64,000 bases of DNA, from positions 19,494,001-19,558,000 of the forward strand of contig NC_092674.1 in assembly GCF_964355755.1 (NCBI RefSeq). Direction: 5' to 3'. The first letter of the stretch is position 1. Each line of letters begins with the position of its first letter. The DNA is from Antedon mediterranea. Taxonomy: Eukaryota; Echinodermata; Crinoidea; Comatulida; Antedonidae. Under the pieces are notes generated by a model that saw only the letters and a list, made by a program, of their open reading frames with translations, did not search any database and was not told where the DNA came from. The position numbers and the translations under genes were made by a program. Positions 49,310-61,859 of this stretch are shown in pieces.

Positions 49310-49995
49310 TCACTCTGCACTTAACAAGTTATTATTTAGTTTCATAATATTTCTATTGTTAACTGTGTATGTGTCACATGAGACTGAATTGCCTTTGTAC
49401 ATGTACGTATTTACGTAGTAAGAAGAAGCGGAGTGAGTTATTTGATATACTGGTAAATGGTCGGAGATTAGCAGGCCTATACCAGAGAAGATCTTTTCGG
49501 AAATTGTATTTGAAAATATGTTGTCAATTAATGTTACTGACTTATTATGTATTCTAGTTGGTCTAGATATAGATGGATAAATAACATCATTTACATCAGT
49601 ACATGAGCAGATTAAGATTAAAATCTCCCATGATATAACATGGTTTACCTTCTTTATCAATAACAGTGAGGACATCATCAAATGAATCATTAAACATATC
49701 TATTTTTATATCTGGTGGATTGTAGACAATACCAACAATTACATTTGTGCACCTTTTTTTTCGATTATCTCAATAAACATACATTCATTTATTTATATAT
49801 ATTTGAGACATATAAGCCAACACCGCCTCCTTTTCGATTCTCCCTGTCTAGAGCATGGAAGTCGTAGTTTGGTAAATATGTCCTAGGTGATGTTTCTTTG
49901 AGCCATGTTTTTGATATGCCAATTACAGTGAATGACTGTTTAATGCTGTTTAGATAAGTAATTAATTTAGTGTTTTTTTTAGTGTTTGTTAATAC
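49310..49995 (-). pseudogene. LINE endonuclease (EEP domain) relic
   Basis: On the minus strand in order: VIGISKTWLKETSP and YLPNYDFHALDRENRKGGGV (about 49940-49830), VIVGIVYNPPDIKIDMFNDS (about 49745-49690), IMGDFNLNLL (about 49630), then SISRPTRIHNKSVTLIDNIF and LLISDHLPVYQI (49570-49440). These are the metal-binding, DFN and SDH motifs of the apurinic-endonuclease-like domain of non-LTR retrotransposons. It has a stop after NIYK and at least one frameshift after MGDFNLNLL, so it is dead. The reverse transcriptase part was not found next to it. Confidence 0.8.
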
Positions 49996-50539
49996 TTCTG
50001 ATATTGTAGTGTAAGAATGAGTAGCTGATATTATTTATTTTATTTACCGAGTCATTTAAGTGCTCACAATTTCTTTTTCCAATGACACCATGGATGAAAA
50101 AAAGGTAAAAAAGATAATATATTAATTTTCAGTGTCTTAAGAAGCGGCTCTATCCTGCGCCTTTCGTTAAAAAGCAGTCAATTGATTAACTCATGAAATA
50201 TTCTCACCATCCAACTGTGTCTGACCATGCCCTGTACTATGCAAGGCAAAGTGTGAAGCGGATTAAGTAAGTATTCCTTATTATTCAAACTCATAAATGA
50301 AGAATTTTTGTTTATAAAATAGCTCGCGTTTTAAAATCCTACATACATTGAAATACATGTAAAGAAAAACAGAAGAATTGAATTTTATAAAATGTTTTTG
50401 TTTATGAATATTTCCCTGAGAATCACATGGGTCATTATACAAATAATTAATTCATTGAACTATTTGATAGCAAACATGAATCACATTTCTATAATACAAG
50501 ACATTATCCAAATCGTTACTATATTATTTCAAGAAGAAT

Positions 50540-51265
50540 TTCACTCTTCCCCGATTATATAAATGATATTATATCAGGGAAGAGTGAAATTACTTCACTC
50601 TTCCCCGATTATATAAATGATATTATATCAGGGAAGAGTGAAATTACTTCACTCTTCCCTGATTATATAAATGATATTATATCAGGGAAGAGTGAAATTA
50701 CTTCACTCTTCCCTGATTATATAAATGATATTATATCAGGGAAGAGTGAAATTACTTCACTCTTCCCTGATTATATAAATAATATTATATCAGGGAAGAG
50801 TGAAATTACTTCACTCTTCCCCGATTATATAAATAATATTATATCAGGGAAGAGTGAAATTACTTCACTCTTCCCTGATTATATAAATAATATTATATCA
50901 GGGAAGAGTGAAATTACTTCACTCTTCCCTGATTATATAAATGATATTATATCAGGGAAGAGTGAAATTACTTCACTCTTCCCTGATTATATAAATGATA
51001 TTATATCAGGGAAGAGTGAAATTACTTCACTCTTCCCTGATTATATAAATAATATTATATCAGGGAAGAGTGAAATTACTTCACTCTTCCCTGATTATAT
51101 AAATAATATTATATCAGGGAAGAGTGAAATTACTTCACTCTTCCCTGATTATATAAATAATATTATATCAGGTAGGAGTGAAATTACTTCACTCTTCCCT
51201 GATTATATAAATGATATTATATCAGGGAAGAGTGAAATTACTTCACTCTTCCCTGATTATATAAA
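50540..51265. repeat. 54-bp satellite in which each unit is a palindrome
   Basis: Thirteen full units and one partial, at exact 54-bp spacing (50540, 50594, ... 51242). Each unit is TTCACTCTTCCCTGAT-(about 16 AT)-ATCAGGGAAGAGTGAA plus ATTAC, i.e. 16-bp perfect arms. Two diagnostic variants, CCCCG/CCCTG in the left arm and AATGAT/AATAAT in the loop, are mixed among the units. It lies about 260 bp downstream of the ERCC5 stop codon. Confidence 0.95.
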
Positions 51266-51304
51266 TAATAAATTAATTATTATATTATTGCCGTCTAATA
51301 ATAT

Positions 51305-51527: not shown

Positions 51528-54500
51528 TTAATCCGAACTGCTTCCACTTTCTGATAAATTTGGTCCTTCCACTTGACCCTTTGTCTGTTTTGATTTGTCA
51601 TCAGTGTTTGCTTCATCACTGCCACTTTCCTCTTTGTACAATACATTCTTTTTACCCTTTTTTCTTCTTTTAATAGGTTTACATTTAATATCTTGCTTGT
51701 TTCCAGATTCTGTTGTAGTCTTCTTAGTATCATCTGCAGAATCGACTTTTATACATTTTCTTTTTTGTTTTAGAGCCTTTTTCTTCTTTTTACCTTGTTG
51801 ATTATCCGACTTTTCTTCGCTATCACTGTAAGATGTGGTCGGTTGAAATTTTTTCAAGACTCGTTTCAGCCGTTTACTTTGAATGTCTGAATTTTGATGT
51901 GCGACTATTCCAAAGTATGATGTAATTTGCCGCTGAACCTACGAAAATTATAGATATATTGCTTAATTAGGCCACTATAGAAAGCAATTGAAAAATGTTG
52001 TGAGTGCTTAATATGTAGGCTACACTACTGGTCTTGAGGTGTGTCAATATTAAAACATAATGTTATTTATTAATAGTAGCCACTTATCTGACATGGTTCT
52101 TAGTATAGCAGACACTAACAATAAAAAACATTATTTTTATATTTAAAACGAACAGTGAACAAAGAAATGGTGCAAATGAAATTAAAAACTTACGTTTTGC
52201 TCATTCATCTTTTTTAAAACTGGTAGAACATTTTCATCAGTTTTCTTTATGTTCCAGTTTAAACGTTCAAGTGCAAATGTGAAATCAGAAAATTAAAGAA
52301 AACCAACTATAAAACAGCATTGTGCTATTTTAAAGATGTTGTAAACAATCCTAATTAGCATCATGCATACTAATGGTTTGAAATCTTTGTTTACTTTCGC
52401 TCTTGACGATTTTCCAGACGAAATGTAATAAAATTAATTTACCTGTTAATTACGTAAACTTGTTGTTTTTGGCTCGAATTTTTGACAAAGTGAATAACTT
52501 TAATATTACTTTGATATGGCCAATTTAAATTTAGAATATTTTTTTTTTCATTTTTTTGTGTTTCAAGGGACAATGCATCTTTAAAGAAATGTTCTGATTT
52601 CAGAATAAGTAAAGCTTTGACACAATACAAAATGGACGGATTTTGTAAATAATACACCTCACGACGAAAACCTACTTATTGTAGAAACTGCAACATTTAT
52701 CTTTGTATAAAAACAGTCAAAATATTCTTGAACACAATTAATTAATTGTTTGTCACGTCACTAACATTTATAAATTTGCAATTTGTATTATATATTTTTG
52801 CTGCAAAAAAATGAGAAAAGGATATCCTCGAATTGAATCTAGATCTGGCATTCCCCAAGAGAATTCCTCTGTCGACTCATCAACCAGTGGATTCATGAAT
52901 GCCTTCAAGACTTCTTCTTGTGGAAATGTGGATGGAAGATCTAGCTTGCGCAGCTGTGATTTGATCTTGGTTTCTACAGGAGGATTTAGATTACCAGAAT
53001 TGGCATCCCACCAAGCTCTAGAAATATTAATATTAATGTATATGAAGTCAGTGAAACCATAATTTGTGCATTATGTATAAAGTAAAAAAATTACTATTTT
53101 TTTTCAAGATTGTAATTGTAGTTTTTGCGTCAGGGAGTTGAGTAATTTGATATTTTGCCCTATTCTGACGTAATTTGTACTTTATACTAAGTGCATTTGA
53201 GAATACTTGCGAAAAAATTCGCAAGTAGTTCTTGCGTGGGACTCCAACCCACGACCTCTAGATCACTAAGCCTGGCAAGCTCGGTGGTCTAGAGCTATGA
53301 ACGGCAGGCTAGTGATCTGGAGGTCGTGGGTTCGAGACCCACCCGAGAACTACTTGCGATTTTTTTAGCAAGTATTCTCAAATGTACTTAGTATAAAGTA
53401 CAAATTACGTCAGAGTAGGGCAAAACATATAATTATTTTTTTTCAGTTTCAATAAAAACAATAACCTAATAATTAAATGTGATTGTACAGTATCAACACA
53501 TAATGTTACATTAACAATAAGCTTTGTAATACAAAGTTATTATTAAAAAATACAGGCCTGTATATTGTACGTTGGCAGCTGATGAGAATATAATAATGTG
53601 TTTTCCATGGCCTATTAAGGTATTGACCGCGACCACTTCCTGCTATGATGTCCCTACAGCTGTAAATGAGCAACTTACCTGAAGTCTCTTAAGCCATCAA
53701 TACCTTTACCAGGGAACTCACTAAGTATTTCCATAGCTGTGATACAACCAACACCATCTAAACCATCAGTATAGTCACAGCCAAGTAGAAGACCCATATT
53801 AATCATTTTTATTCGATCAAGAACTTGATGAATATGAAAAATAATAGTACAGTAGATTATAAAGTATTTTTTGCTTAAATTTAATTTATATTAGCTACAA
53901 AGAGTTATATATTTCAGTTTTACTATGTCTTAATTTAATTTATATTAGCTACAAAGAGTTATATCGTTCAGTTTTACTATGTCTTAATTTAATTTATATT
54001 AGCTACAAAGAGTTATATATTTCAGTTTTACTTTTAATGTCTTAATTTAATTTATATTAGCTACAAAGAGTTATATATTTCAGTTTTACTTTTAATGTCT
54101 TAATTTAATTTCAATTTAGGAATAATAAAAATTTTAAAATCTTATATTAAATTAATAAAATTGTATTGAGTTACAATTTACCTATCTCTTTTATCTGTGA
54201 TGTCCTTGTGGATAAAAATGATAAAGAGATAGCAGGACCATTACTTAATTCAACCAATGACTTCTATCGTCACGTCATGGGTTTTGCTTAAATTTGGTAC
54301 ACAAAAGAGCCATTAAGCTAAAACGTCAGAATTCTAAATGTTAGCTTAGTTGGCTATCGGTTCGCGAGATATGGACTACTGCAAATCCTGAGTTTTCAGG
54401 CAATAAAATAAATTATTTTATAAACTCAAATATTTCAAACATCCATATTTTCCATATTTATGGTTTAATTTTAGCAAATAAGGTATCATATGAATAGGAA

Positions 54501-57500
54501 ATTAGATATTTTGATAGATAGAACATATGCTAATTTTTTTCTAACAAACCTTTTGACTTTGAATTTAACCATGGCCACCATTTTTAGGTTATGTGTTTTT
54601 ATACCAAATTTATATAATTTTGCATGTAAGCTATAACATATCCAAAAACTGGAGATATGTTTTTCCATATGTTAGAGAATGCTTTTAAAATGTCTATACG
54701 TTTAAACATTTCCATCGAATACATTTGCTTATACACATCATATACAAATTGTGATCTACATTTTTTTTATTACACATCACAGCTGAGCAGTATTTGAGGT
54801 ATAACAATTAACATTGTTACATTTCACTTATAAGCTTAGAAAATGTTTTTCCCGATATTCATTACATTACTCACATAATTGATTTTCAAAGTTACAGCTT
54901 TCATACAACTCAACTTCTTTATCCTTGGTAAAAAAGTTTTTATAAACTTTACGACCGCCAAAGAGCCAGACGTCACTATCATCTGTAATGGATCCATGTG
55001 TTTGGTCACAAAGGTCAAGAAAAGCACATTGCGCTTCTGCCTCTTGAGGGCTTGTAATATATGGAATACCAAAAAGCTCAAGTAATTCCTGAAATATAAT
55101 TAATTAATCATAAAATTAGTTATTTGGTATAATGGGGTTGTATTAAATTCAAAATAACAAAATAAATTTCAAGTTCTTTAAAAATAATCAATTGTATTTT
55201 AAAAGTGAGCGAGTTAAACAAGGCTGCTTTGTGACATGTATGTTTACACATTACATTACAAAAAGTCTTCCTGGACTAGGTCTGTTAATCATAGGTTTTG
55301 TACACTAATTGCCTGTCTACATATAAAAAACATAGAACATATTTGGAGCTAAGTAAAAGTTACCATGGTGATACTAGTTCACACTGCATACAGTATACAT
55401 ACTGTAGCTGTACATTATATGAAATGACCCTTATAGGAGACTTTTATTTAATTATTAAAAGTGCACATGAGCACCTTGAGCATGACATGAATATATATTA
55501 CTGTATGTATCACTTTTGTCAATACCATAACAATGGATGAAGACAACTAAAGACCTAAACAAGATGTATAATTTTGTTGTTTTTTTTGTGTTAAGATTTC
55601 AATACAATCAGCCTTCCCTGAAATTCACAAGACATTCAGTAGTAAAATCTATTTAACTAAATCAATGCCCATGCATTAGTCATTCAGATCTCCCAAAACC
55701 AAACATTGTTGGTTGACGATGGATTTACCTTACTTTCAGCATACATTTGATCAGTAATTGATGCCCCAATTCTTTGCTGACGTTGCTGCTCACTTTTCAA
55801 TGTTGCTCTTTCTTCCTCAAGAGCATTTTTCATTTCACTAACATTCTTCTAAAATATAAGGATATCATAGCAAATCAGTGTCGCCTCCCAGATAGTGAAC
55901 ACAGTGAAATTATTTGTTTAAACCAATATTGTATCAGTTCTTACAAAATTAGATAAAATAGTTGAGAGGTGGCATGGAATTACAAACACTATATATCCTA
56001 AGTTTTTTTAAGCTTTGTATGTTGTGGTTAACTAAACATGTTACTTCTGTAGGTTAAGTAGGCTAATATTGTTGAACTAATCACAAACAATATAATCAAA
56101 ATAATACTAGACTGTTGTAAGTGGATTGTAACTCACAGTATTCATATCTGTCCACTCTTTTATAGACTTTTCTTTATCTTTAGATATAGATTCCATAAAT
56201 TGTTCTTCTTTACGTTGTAGTGTAATTGATTGTTTTCTTGGTGAAAAAAAAAACACATAATTCAATTAAGATTAATTTTACCATTACAGTTTTTTTTCAG
56301 TATTGGCAATAAAAAACTTTATCAACATTTGAAGAACAATATCACAAACAAGTCAAATTTGAGATCTGTGACAATGATTAATCTAGAACAATAATATTTC
56401 ACTGTCGTCTCCTACACCAAAAAAATTCATGGATCGGGTAATTTGATCAAATTGTCAGAATTTCCATATTAGGATGCATATTTTTGTCAGATTGTGCGTT
56501 CTTCTTGAAATAACTCAACAAAGCCTAAACATTTTAAAATATTTTTTTAAACTTGTTAATATTGGCAGCACATGGAGTATAAAATGACACAAGTTTTGCT
56601 TTCATTTTCACCTATTTTTTGTGTTGATTTTGTGCTGTATCTCATCTTTATCCTGCACTTCATAATTATGCATATCATCCGTAACTGGTACACCAGGATT
56701 AGTTTCCATAAAGATTTCAGCAGGAAAAAGTTCATCATTACCTCTTATTTGGGTTGGATCAAATGAGACTTCAATAAAGTCATCTAAAAGGTACATACAG
56801 AAGAAAAAATTACAAAATACTTACAGTAATTGAAAATAAAATGAATGCCTACACTCGTAAGGATCAAAGAAACGGTAAAAATACTATACCTTCAGAGTCA
56901 CTTTCTTTATCCATTTCATTAGTTAATACATTTTTTCTTCCGCTTTCTAATTCTTCTTCTGTGGGTGTCTTTTGAATTTCCTGGTTCTTCACCAGCCTAT
57001 CATCATTCAAAATCTTATCACAATCTGTTTGGTTTATACTTGTACTATCTTTATAATCACTGACTTCATCAATATCTTTCTCTTGTTTTGTACTATTATT
57101 TTTCAGACAAACAATTTCCACATTTTGAGTGTTTGCAATGCTAGTTTCTAACAATTGACTCTCGTCTGCCACAGATATGGTAGCATCTGATAGCAGACTT
57201 CTATTTGCCACGGATTTGGTTTGAATATCTAACTGTAAATGTTGTTGAGTTATTACTTGAATATATTTGCCATCCTTAACATGATCCCTCTTTTTGTCTT
57301 GTGTTTCTGATAGAACCAGATCCTTATAAGCTGAAGATGTAGAACTATTCTCGTTTACAATAATGTCATGCTTGTTTAACCTTGCATCATTTGATGTCAC
57401 TTCTTCTAAAGGCTGATCGTTTCTTGCTTGCTTCTGTGCCATCTTTGCTTTCTGGTTGTCAAAGACTGCCTGCATTGCTATTTCAAGATCATTTGCTGTT

Positions 57501-60500
57501 ATTGGACGTTTTGATTCCTTCTCTTCTAAAACACCAATAGTCTTATTATTCCATAAAGACTTAGAGCTTTCAGCAAGATTTTCAACTTGCAAAATGTCTT
57601 TGCTGCCAGATGGTTTTGCTTCATCTCCAAGATTTTGTTCAGCATTCTTTTGTTTTTGGGTCTTTACTAAAATATAGTGTTGGGTGTCTTCAGACACAAC
57701 TCTTCGTGCTTCTACACTTTTTGTTTCTACATCAAGAATGGAAGCAATTTCTCCAGAACTCTTCCTACTCATCTCATCACGTATATCTTCAAGCTTTCGA
57801 TTGAGTTTGTTCTTATTTAATAGTTTGTTCAGCTGAAAATCTGAAAATTCATTCGCCTCCTGTATTTCAAATAAAAAAAAAATACACAGAGAAAAGAAAA
57901 AAGGATGTTTAATTATATTGTAGAGGCTCTGCCATTTTTAGTCGCAGGACCTGTTTGATGAATAGATGAATATAATGCATAAATGCATTGTTCACCAATT
58001 ATTTATTATAGGCAATAGGCAATAGTGAAGCAATGTGAACAGGGCGACCTCTCGAAATGGCCTATATCTATTTAAAATATTTATTAGTATAGAGCCATCA
58101 TATAAATAATAATAAATAAAATCATATAAATAATAATAAATAAAATCATATAAATCAGAGCTCATCAATAAAATAAAATTTAATTCAAATGCAAATAGGT
58201 GTAGTAGTATGTGACAGAGTAATAGCCACAGCTTCAAACTGGTGTTTTTTGACTGGCTAATGTTGTGGCCGTTTCCATGGTGGCTCGTTTTATAAACCGG
58301 TTTGTGTTGAATCTTGCAACATAATAACTTAATGGTGTAAACAGAGTTGTTTATGATTTCACTTTCTTTGGTGTTATCACAGTAGTACTGTACATTTTAG
58401 AGAATATGTTCAATGTAAACTCATTCTAAGGCATAAAAATTATAGATTGAATGGGCACATTTCTTCAACCTTGTTTAAAAGGGCTGTTGTAATCATTCAA
58501 TATTGAATAAATGGTAGTATTCTATAATGGTAGTATAAATAGCCGTATTGAATTTGAAATGTTTGTATTTACACCGAAGGAATATCTTAATCACAATCTA
58601 ATATAGATATTTACTACAGTATTTAACTGTTTTGACTAACCTTTGGTAGTGTACTTTTCTTAGCCCATGAATTATGCTTGTTTTTTTCTAGATACTCCTC
58701 GATTATTTCATGCTGTATTTCTGGAGGAAGGGCCTTAAAGTCTTCTGAATTTATGTCAAAATTGTCAATGTCTTGATCACTAAACCTTGACATCTGTTGT
58801 TGGTGTTCATCCCAGATGTCATCTTCAAAATCTCTGATAAATTTAACATTGATGACGACACATACTGTATTTATTTAAAAGGCATTTAAAAATATATAAT
58901 TGCCCTGGCATCACAAAGTATGTTAGATCTGCTATTCAGCGTCGCTACTAAATGTTCATTTTTTCAATAATGCAATACATTTGTTCCTAGCTTTAGGGTG
59001 TAGGGCATTGTCACTGTTATGATATTCATAAATCTATAGTGCACTTTTAGTAAAAGTATAAGCATTTATCATTGGAAAAAACCAATTGTTAATATAGTCC
59101 AATGTCAATGAATCAACTACCCAAGCCAACAACAAATCAATCAAAATAACTATCTGCCCAACATAAACCAACTCATGAGATGGAACTACAGTAGTAAAGT
59201 TTTGAATTGTTTGCAGTTTTGTTTAGTGTTTCTAAAAAAGGAAAAAAGTTAGGTGTTTTGGCATTTTGGTCGTAATGCTACAACCATCTTCTGCACAACT
59301 TTATTCCCTTTTGTTTGGAAACACATCCTTTACCACAAACATACTAGTGTTTATTCGCATGCAAACACATATTGAGATAAACCTACAAATAACATCCTAA
59401 TGACCTACTTGAAACTATCATCTGAAGCATCAGGTAGTGGTGGCAGGTTGTACATGTCCTGTGCACTAGCTGCTTTTCTGTCAACTCTAGGCATTTTTGT
59501 TTTTTTTATACTGTGAAATGAAAAATACAAAATAAAATAGAAACACACACAACTATTCAATTTCATAAAAAACAAAGCAAACAAGTTGTATGAAAAAGAC
59601 ACTTTTTGTATTCACATTCTCAAGCAAAAACAAAAACTATATTTTCAGGCTTTGATGGCAACAGTTTAGCTCTTCCATGTTAAGAATGCAGCCTTTCTTT
59701 AACCGTACAATATTATACAGAATAAAATCTTTGATTGTTTTAATCATAGTGAAGTTAAGTGAGGATAGTGGCCATTCCTCTTCATCAGCAGACCCAGTGC
59801 CAGTTATATTGTCCTTTTCATAAGAATATGTTTAGCCCATGCCATGTGCTTCACATCATAAACAGTATCGTTTGTCTGAATATATATTAACAATTTAGCA
59901 AAATAAAATATTCTTTATAGTGTACTCTGCAATTGCTAACCTTTTTTTTTTGCCTAGATATGTATCGACAGCATGGACCTTCATATAGTTCTTGAGAATC
60001 TGTTCTGAAGCTTGGCCTGTTTTATTTATTGCTAATTCCTTTCTCTTTCTTCTTCCTGCCTATGTATACAGAATAAGAATCATAATCAAAAATTAATTCA
60101 ATTATAATAATCATAACTTGTAATGACTTTAATAACACCAATCAAGCACATCCTCCAAGAGAAATAAATATTGAAACATGTTTAATGAAATATAAAGAAT
60201 ATTATAAGCTGGACAATTTTAGAAGCCATCTGAATCTGAAGTGAAAGCTTTTCCTGGAGCCAGAAGTTCCACTGTATTTAATTTTACTGTATTTTGGTTA
60301 AATACTTGATTATGAAGGATAATTATTATATCTTATATGATAAACTATAAATTGCAACAAGCAAAATACACTTACTAACCATTGTACGTCGCTTAAGCTC
60401 TGGAACGCTGCCATCAAATACAAAGATGGGTTTAATTCTGAAATAGAGAAGCTTGCAGATACGATGAACTAATGTGACAAGGTGAGCATTATTCACCAAA

Positions 60501-61859
60501 TTGCCTTCAGAATCCCTCATACCTCGTACAGCTTGATGTAACCAAATGCTGATATCTAATGACTAAATAAGGACTTGAATAGCAATGCAGTCAATAGATG
60601 CAATACAATGGCAGATGTTGGAAATGGAGAGGGTAGGACATTCCTTAGATGCCATCGCTTTTTAAAAAAAATATGCCTGTGCAACTTACAAAATTATTCT
60701 TTTTAATATAAATAAAGGCCAATTTACACAGACAAGTGGTATCGGTAAGAGGAAAACCACATAGCTTGTCCTACGTAGAATCTGTATCTACAGTATCTGC
60801 GTTACATGTAAATGGTCATAATGAATAACATAGATTCTATTTTTTTATTATCGTTAAAGCTTGTCTGTATTGGCCTTAAGAGTAACATCTGATCTGTCTT
60901 CATATAACAGTTTTTTACTGCCAAGTTGGTGTAATACCCTTTACAACGCCGAGCTTATAACAAACCTGTGTCGTGTCTAGATACATTTCCTTTTCACACC
61001 TGATTCTTTAGGCCGGGAATGACATGGGTTGCATGTATTTACAGTCCAAACTACCAACCCGTGTGTAAATGCTTTAGATTATTTGAAATATCGTCCTCTC
61101 ATGCATAAAGGAACACCCTAGTAATGGTCTGCTCATTATACCTCCTACAATATTGTTTTATGGCGATACGAAAACAAATTAGTCTACTCGTGAAGAATAA
61201 TATCGAATAAGCAAAAGCAGTCTTACTGTATCTTAATTGTATGTAAATTAAATACTATAGTGAGCGAGGATAGCAACCAACCAGAAAAACATACGCGGGA
61301 CTGTTAACGTCGCGAACATGCAAGTGCACAGGTTCGCTACTTAGCGAGCTACTGAGGTAGTACATTGTTTCTCTCTTTTTATCATAATTTACCATAAAAC
61401 GTACATTTTTAAGAGAAGGAATGACCTGGTTTAATGATTTTAAAGTAATATAAATTATGCATTATTTTAACAAAACATCAAAAATTGTACGAATAATGGG
61501 TCTAAAAAAATGCAATAACTGTGTCATGCTCAAGTGAATCTGTGAGGTTGTGTAAATTGTTAATTGTGTGTCACATCATTCGAAACTGCTGACTCTTGTA
61601 GTTACAGTAATCATATACTTTAGCAGTCCCTGACCAATTTCATCTTTGTACATTGTATATATGTTTTGTTGGTCGAATAAATAAATGAAATGAAATGAAA
61701 CTGTACTTTATCTATTTCATTTCTAAACTGTCTTTCACTTAACAACTTTTAATACAATTTTAAAAGGATACCGACAGCCAACACCTTTCCTTCCAATGAT
61801 TCAAGCGTTACAGGTTTCCCTGTAGGTTTTAAAAGTTGCCACAGTCCGTGAACACCCAT
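51528..61859 (-). CDS. ERCC5: XPG structure-specific endonuclease, nucleotide excision repair
   Basis: Complete, 1020 aa, 14 coding exons: 61859-61772, 60555-60376, 60055-59941, 59486-59409, 58833-58641, 57859-56890, 56783-56612, 56236-56137, 55848-55729, 55088-54875, 53823-53679, 53017-52826, 52278-52194, 51938-51528; every join keeps phase. XPG cuts 3' of the lesion in excision repair and stabilises TFIIH. XPG-N domain: [66 protein letters not shown]; helix-hairpin region [16 protein letters not shown]. Catalytic acids are present: Asp30 (split across exons 1-2), Asp77, Glu688, Glu690, Asp709, Asp711, Asp760. The spacer (exons 5-8) keeps [31 protein letters not shown] and acidic SDSEDDFIEV, as in vertebrates. 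A PIP box QRQITSYF (886-893) and two Lys-rich clusters (nuclear signals) lie in the tail. Human XPG is 1186 aa; the spacer here is shorter. Intron 12 is AT-AC. Confidence 0.96.
52279..52825 (-). other. AT-AC (U12-type) intron 12 of ERCC5
   Basis: Minus strand: the exon ends ATTCGAGG and the intron starts ATATCCTTTTC, matching the U12 AT-AC donor consensus /ATATCCTTT. It ends with TTTCTTTAATTTTCTGATTTCAC followed by the exon ATTTGCACTTG; TTCTTTAAT resembles the U12 branch site TTCCTTAAC and lies about 12-15 nt before the AC. No GT donor or AG acceptor at these places keeps the frame, while the AT-AC join gives [20 protein letters not shown], aligning with the vertebrate IRE..Q.YFGWNRTKTDES region. 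547 nt. Confidence 0.88.
53144..53434. repeat. long hairpin element with tRNA-like arms in ERCC5 intron 11
   Basis: A palindrome centred near 53290: the left arm TTTTGCCCTATTCTGACGTA, TTTGTACTTTATACTAAGTG, GAGAATACTTGCGA, AAGTAGTTCTTGCG, CCCACGACCTC mirrors the right arm through GAGGTCGTGGGTTCGAGACCC, GAACTACTTGCGA and TACGTCAGAGTAGGGCAAAA. GTGGGTTCGAGACCCAC resembles the T-arm/B box of a tRNA, but a complete cloverleaf is not present. Intronic. Confidence 0.75.
53880..54112. repeat. four-copy tandem repeat in ERCC5 intron 10
   Basis: A unit of about 54-57 bp, TTAATTTATATTAGCTACAAAG-AGTTATATATTTCAGTTTTACT-ATGTC, four copies, the last two with ACTTTTAATGTC. Confidence 0.85.

Follow-up and report, generated by a model that had tools for sequence, protein, structure and literature searches.

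U12-type introns are defined by their 5′ splice site and branch site, with an optimum branch distance of 11–13 nt (PMC3584512), and their positions are strongly conserved (PMC3584512; PMC2426677). They cluster in genes, and in those surveyed animals in which U12 introns occur, AT-AC members account for 8–47% of them (PMC7367187). In human ERCC5, a clinical paper lists c.2880-2A>G as a variant of the 3′ splice site of intron 13 (PMC11227628), which places that intron between c.2879 and c.2880, i.e. after base 2 of codon 960. The ERCC5/XPG gene of Antedon mediterranea, located in the 64-kb stretch of DNA analysed here (the window), is interrupted at the corresponding site by its intron 12. With a probability of roughly 0.96, we consider this to be an inherited, U12-dependent AT-AC intron that is excised by the minor spliceosome; both its excision in vivo and its class at the transcript level we infer from the sequence.

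The ERCC5 coding exons were assembled by hand from the raw sequence. Conceptual splicing of the 14 exons yielded a complete gene of 1028 codons in a single open frame with a TAA end (Table 1). In a phmmer search, the 1028-aa protein matched human ERCC5 best (PDB 9pd5_S, E 3e-166), followed by yeast Rad2, with GEN1, FEN1 and EXO1 much weaker, and it was predicted to contain the XPG N and XPG I domains as well as the XPG-specific C-terminal segment; judging by this homology, it is an XPG orthologue. The PIP-box pattern is Q-x-x-I-x-x-Y-F, and VQRQITSYF at the start of exon 14 fits it, in agreement with the PIP box that an earlier reading of the sequence alone (the sequence-only reading) had placed beyond the intron. 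By a search of the 354-Mb assembly, ERCC5 is single-copy: exons 12 and 13 matched this locus only, ruling out a retrocopy or paralogous copy with a spliced junction. That the gene is nonfunctional or the product of an assembly error, as might be argued from its having been checked in a single assembly, appears extremely improbable given that the 14 exons form one open frame, homologous over its full length to human ERCC5, and that the intron phase agrees with that of the human intron.

Table 1. Features of the ERCC5/XPG locus (window positions).
Feature	Position	Strand	Description and basis
ERCC5/XPG coding region	51528..61859	-	14 coding exons, 13 introns, 1028 aa; conceptual splice
Exon 12	52826..53017	-	ends ...DLDSIRG, split codon GG|A
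Exon 13	52194..52278	-	28 residues; aligned to human residues 961-988
Exon 14	51528..51938	-	PIP-box-like VQRQITSYF at start, lysine-rich tail after
Intron 12, probable U12-type AT-AC	52279..52825	-	547 nt, phase 2; donor/branch scores, join enumeration
U12-type 5′ splice site ATATCCTTTT	52816..52825	-	exact consensus; pairs with U11 and U6atac in model
U12-type branch site TTCTTTAAT	52292..52300	-	branch A 52293 or 52294; 1 mismatch from TTCCTTRAY
AC acceptor of intron 12	52279..52280	-	conceptual splice
Dispersed repeat copy in AT-AC intron	52338..52583	.	91-96% identity to 39 other scored genomic copies
Intron 1, very likely U12-type GT-AG subtype	60556..61771	-	1216 nt, phase 1; donor score, join enumeration
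Candidate U12 branch site of intron 1, GTCCTTATT	60566..60574	-	weak; score 5.0/14

Exon 12 closes with ...GAT TCA ATT CGA GG at 52826, where the intron starts with ATATCCTTTTCTC. The last bases of the intron run ...TTTTCTGATTTCAC to 52279, so that its 3′ end reads ...GGTTTTCTTTAATTTTCTGATTTCAC and exon 13 opens with ATTTGCACTTGAACG. At this in-frame AC acceptor, GG of exon 12 and A of exon 13 form a Gly codon, and the frame then runs on through exon 13. The coordinates 52279-52825 proposed by the sequence-only reading are hence correct, with the donor at 52825 of the minus strand and the AC end at 52279. Donors and branch sites of all 13 ERCC5 introns were scored with untrained matrices, made by hand from the published U12 consensus. 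The donor of intron 12, ATATCCTTTT at 52825, has the ATATCCTT(T) of the U12 AT-AC subtype and scored 14.3 of a possible 15.2; the 11 introns other than 1 and 12 all scored below zero. Close to the acceptor, TTCTTTAAT departs from TTCCTTRAY by a single mismatch and had the highest branch score of the 13 introns (7.0), a value equalled or exceeded at the same distance by 0.8% of the AC dinucleotides in the 64-kb window. Its branch A lies about 14–15 nt from the intron end, slightly beyond the published 11–13 nt optimum.

On both strands of the window, ATATCCTTTT is present in one copy, exactly at the end of exon 12, and RTATCCTTTT in two, both at the exon ends of introns 1 and 12. As a first-order Markov model predicts ~1.3 occurrences of ATATCCTTT per window (both strands), a chance match at one prescribed base has a probability of order 1e-5. 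Compared with the U12-type AT-AC introns catalogued in U12DB and IAOD, intron 12 is alike in its exact 5′ splice site and short branch-to-AC distance and differs in nothing essential, the branch site having one mismatch and the repeat insertion being incidental. Terminal dinucleotides alone do not set the class of an intron (PMC3584512), and an AT-AC intron may also belong to a rare U2-type class handled by the major machinery; for intron 12 we find this hardly credible, as ATCCTTT at positions +3 to +9 is the U12 signature and a U12 branch site lies close to the acceptor.

All joins of exon 12 to exon 13 with GT-AG, GC-AG or AT-AC ends were enumerated and scored against the human XPG segment. 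The sequence-only reading had held that a single join keeps both frame and XPG similarity. With respect to frame this was slightly too strict, 70 stop-free joins preserving it, but with respect to similarity the AT-AC U12 join indeed stood first (score 161). Six GT-AG and five GC-AG joins were among those in frame and free of stops, which would allow the major spliceosome to use nearby sites and produce a slightly different protein, the AT-AC appearance then being due to chance. Yet the best GT-AG join drops 31 conserved residues (54 vs. 161), the best GC-AG join (129) swaps a conserved 11-residue segment for intron-derived sequence, and the perfect U12 donor found at just the required base would have to be explained by the coincidence estimated above, making this scenario very unlikely. 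More generally, competing in-frame joins come at the expense of conserved residues, which are lost or replaced, and no U12 donor is present in those with the highest scores.

The minor-spliceosomal snRNAs, whose presence in the host genome had been suggested as a check, were all found in the same assembly above their Rfam gathering scores: U11 at two loci (88.6 and 82.9 bits), U12 (125.7 bits), U4atac (97.6 bits) and U6atac (136.6 bits). A second U6atac-like match (G000:C7:8523554-8523655, L014; 33.7 bits, just above the gathering score) is probably a pseudogene. As to the U11/U12 proteins, two stretches in the assembly matched the PDCD7 family, and one short stretch, whose frame contains one stop and which constitutes weaker evidence, matched SNRNP25. 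The U11 5′ end and the GAAAGGAGAG segment of U6atac are able to pair with the donor of intron 12, with modelled energies of –5.8 kcal/mol for U11 and –7.5 kcal/mol for U6atac, and the GUAAGGAAAA segment of U12 with its branch site, the modelled value for the branch region being –8.2 kcal/mol with a helix of ~10 bp possible. Taken with donor, branch site, acceptor, frame and protein similarity, the four snRNAs bear out the claim of a U12-type AT-AC intron in ERCC5.

In the proposed course of splicing, ATATCCTTTT would be paired first by U11 and afterwards by U6atac, U12 would pair with TTTTCTTTAAT, and the acceptor would be the AC 14 nt downstream. Joining GG of exon 12 to A of exon 13 would restore the Gly codon and, with it, the conserved WN..KTDE..PVLK segment and the PIP box in exon 14. 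Conceptual translation of a transcript retaining intron 12 ran for 18 extra residues beyond the split codon before meeting a stop. This stop would lie ahead of the PIP box as well as the basic tail, both of which would therefore be lost upon retention.

The repeat copy inside intron 12, of which at least 39 further copies were counted among the scored copies, is clear of the donor and the branch site and leaves ~300 nt of the intron outside it. At window positions 52329-52585, the repeat is bounded by perfectly matching inverted ends of 10 bp (TTTAAAGATG/CATCTTTAAA). Seven aligned copies run on, on one side, into shared sequence that differs from that of the intron 12 copy, which accordingly looks truncated or recombined there. 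A special RNA structure of the intron was rejected, its predicted fold being ordinary (z –0.56); the 15-nt complementary arms at the acceptor were absent from this fold.

Intron 1, absent from the sequence-only reading, emerged as a second candidate. It splits a GAT codon after the first base, between AV and DISIW, and its donor GTATCCTTTT reached the maximum score of 15.2. In the 64-kb window, this word occurs once on both strands, exactly at the end of an XPG exon, and the resulting join was the best of 16 frame-preserving joins. Like U12-type GT-AG introns, intron 1 combines an exact GTATCCTTTT donor with an AG acceptor; set against the expected pair of a 5′ splice site GTATCCTT and a U12 branch site, its donor is perfect and its branch weak. 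A branch as good as GTCCTTATT accompanies 2% of the AG sites in the window. Modelled donor pairing was as good as that of intron 12, and the predicted helix between the branch region and U12 had no bulged adenosine, leaving the branch point uncertain. From these sequence elements, intron 1 is very likely U12-type, of the GT-AG subtype, and ERCC5 likely has two minor introns, 1 and 12, consistent with what is known of how U12 introns cluster in genes (PMC7367187). The position of intron 1 is not common to the paralogue EXO1, an EXO1-like locus (L022) matching XPG_N 1-56 in one uninterrupted frame; as this locus lacks an intron at the corresponding codon, the nuclease superfamily does not share the position throughout.

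Several other elements lie in and around ERCC5. Just past its 3′ end, 13.5 copies of a 54-bp unit, 98% alike, occupy 50540-51270; the unit holds the complementary arms TTCACTCTTCCCTGAT and ATCAGGGAAGAGTGAA and reads as an open frame on the plus strand. Intron 10 contains a tandem array of ~4 copies of a 54-bp unit (53878-54111), and intron 11 an inverted repeat (53170-53410) with arms around GCAAGTAGTTCT...GTGGGTTCGAGACCCAC, whose GGTTCGA-like motif recalls a tRNA-related element. Frame fragments at 49310-50034 on the minus strand (e.g. VIDKEGKPCYIMGDFNLNLLMY) resemble the endonuclease region of a non-LTR retrotransposon. A U12-donor-like word at 55865 on the minus strand, ATATCCTTAT, is in the wrong place, 17 nt upstream of the intron 8 acceptor, and presumably reflects chance. 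Elsewhere in the assembly, a search for mitochondrial COX1 gave no match.

In the alignment with human ERCC5, E960 (KIREF) falls on the glycine with the split codon, and the conserved segment is aligned on either side of the join. Human intron 13, which lies inside codon 960 (PMC11227628), is thus at the same position and in the same phase, 2, as intron 12, the very circumstance under which the sequence-only reading had taken the intron to predate the split between these animals. The shared codon and phase indeed imply an intron older than the separation of the two lineages, and common descent is by far the simplest reading of the alignment. With intron 12 here corresponding to intron 13 in human, the count of upstream introns differs by one. 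Human intron 13 may itself belong to the AT-AC minor class, as the sequence-only reading proposed. The A at human position –2 (c.2880-2A>G) fits AC and AG acceptors alike, and in the open literature searched we found no statement on the class of this intron or on minor introns of human ERCC5.

It is conceivable, albeit improbable, that minor-spliceosome activity limits the output of full-length XPG and that introns 1 and 12 have for this reason been kept over very long times; if true, nucleotide-excision repair would be coupled to the supply of U6atac or U11/U12 via the ERCC5 introns. In practical terms, gene finders restricted to GT-AG introns would truncate or distort ERCC5 here. As an old, inherited intron of a known kind, intron 12 leaves the knowledge of minor introns unchanged, and provides a clean example of what would be a minor-class intron held at one codon position since before the split from vertebrates.
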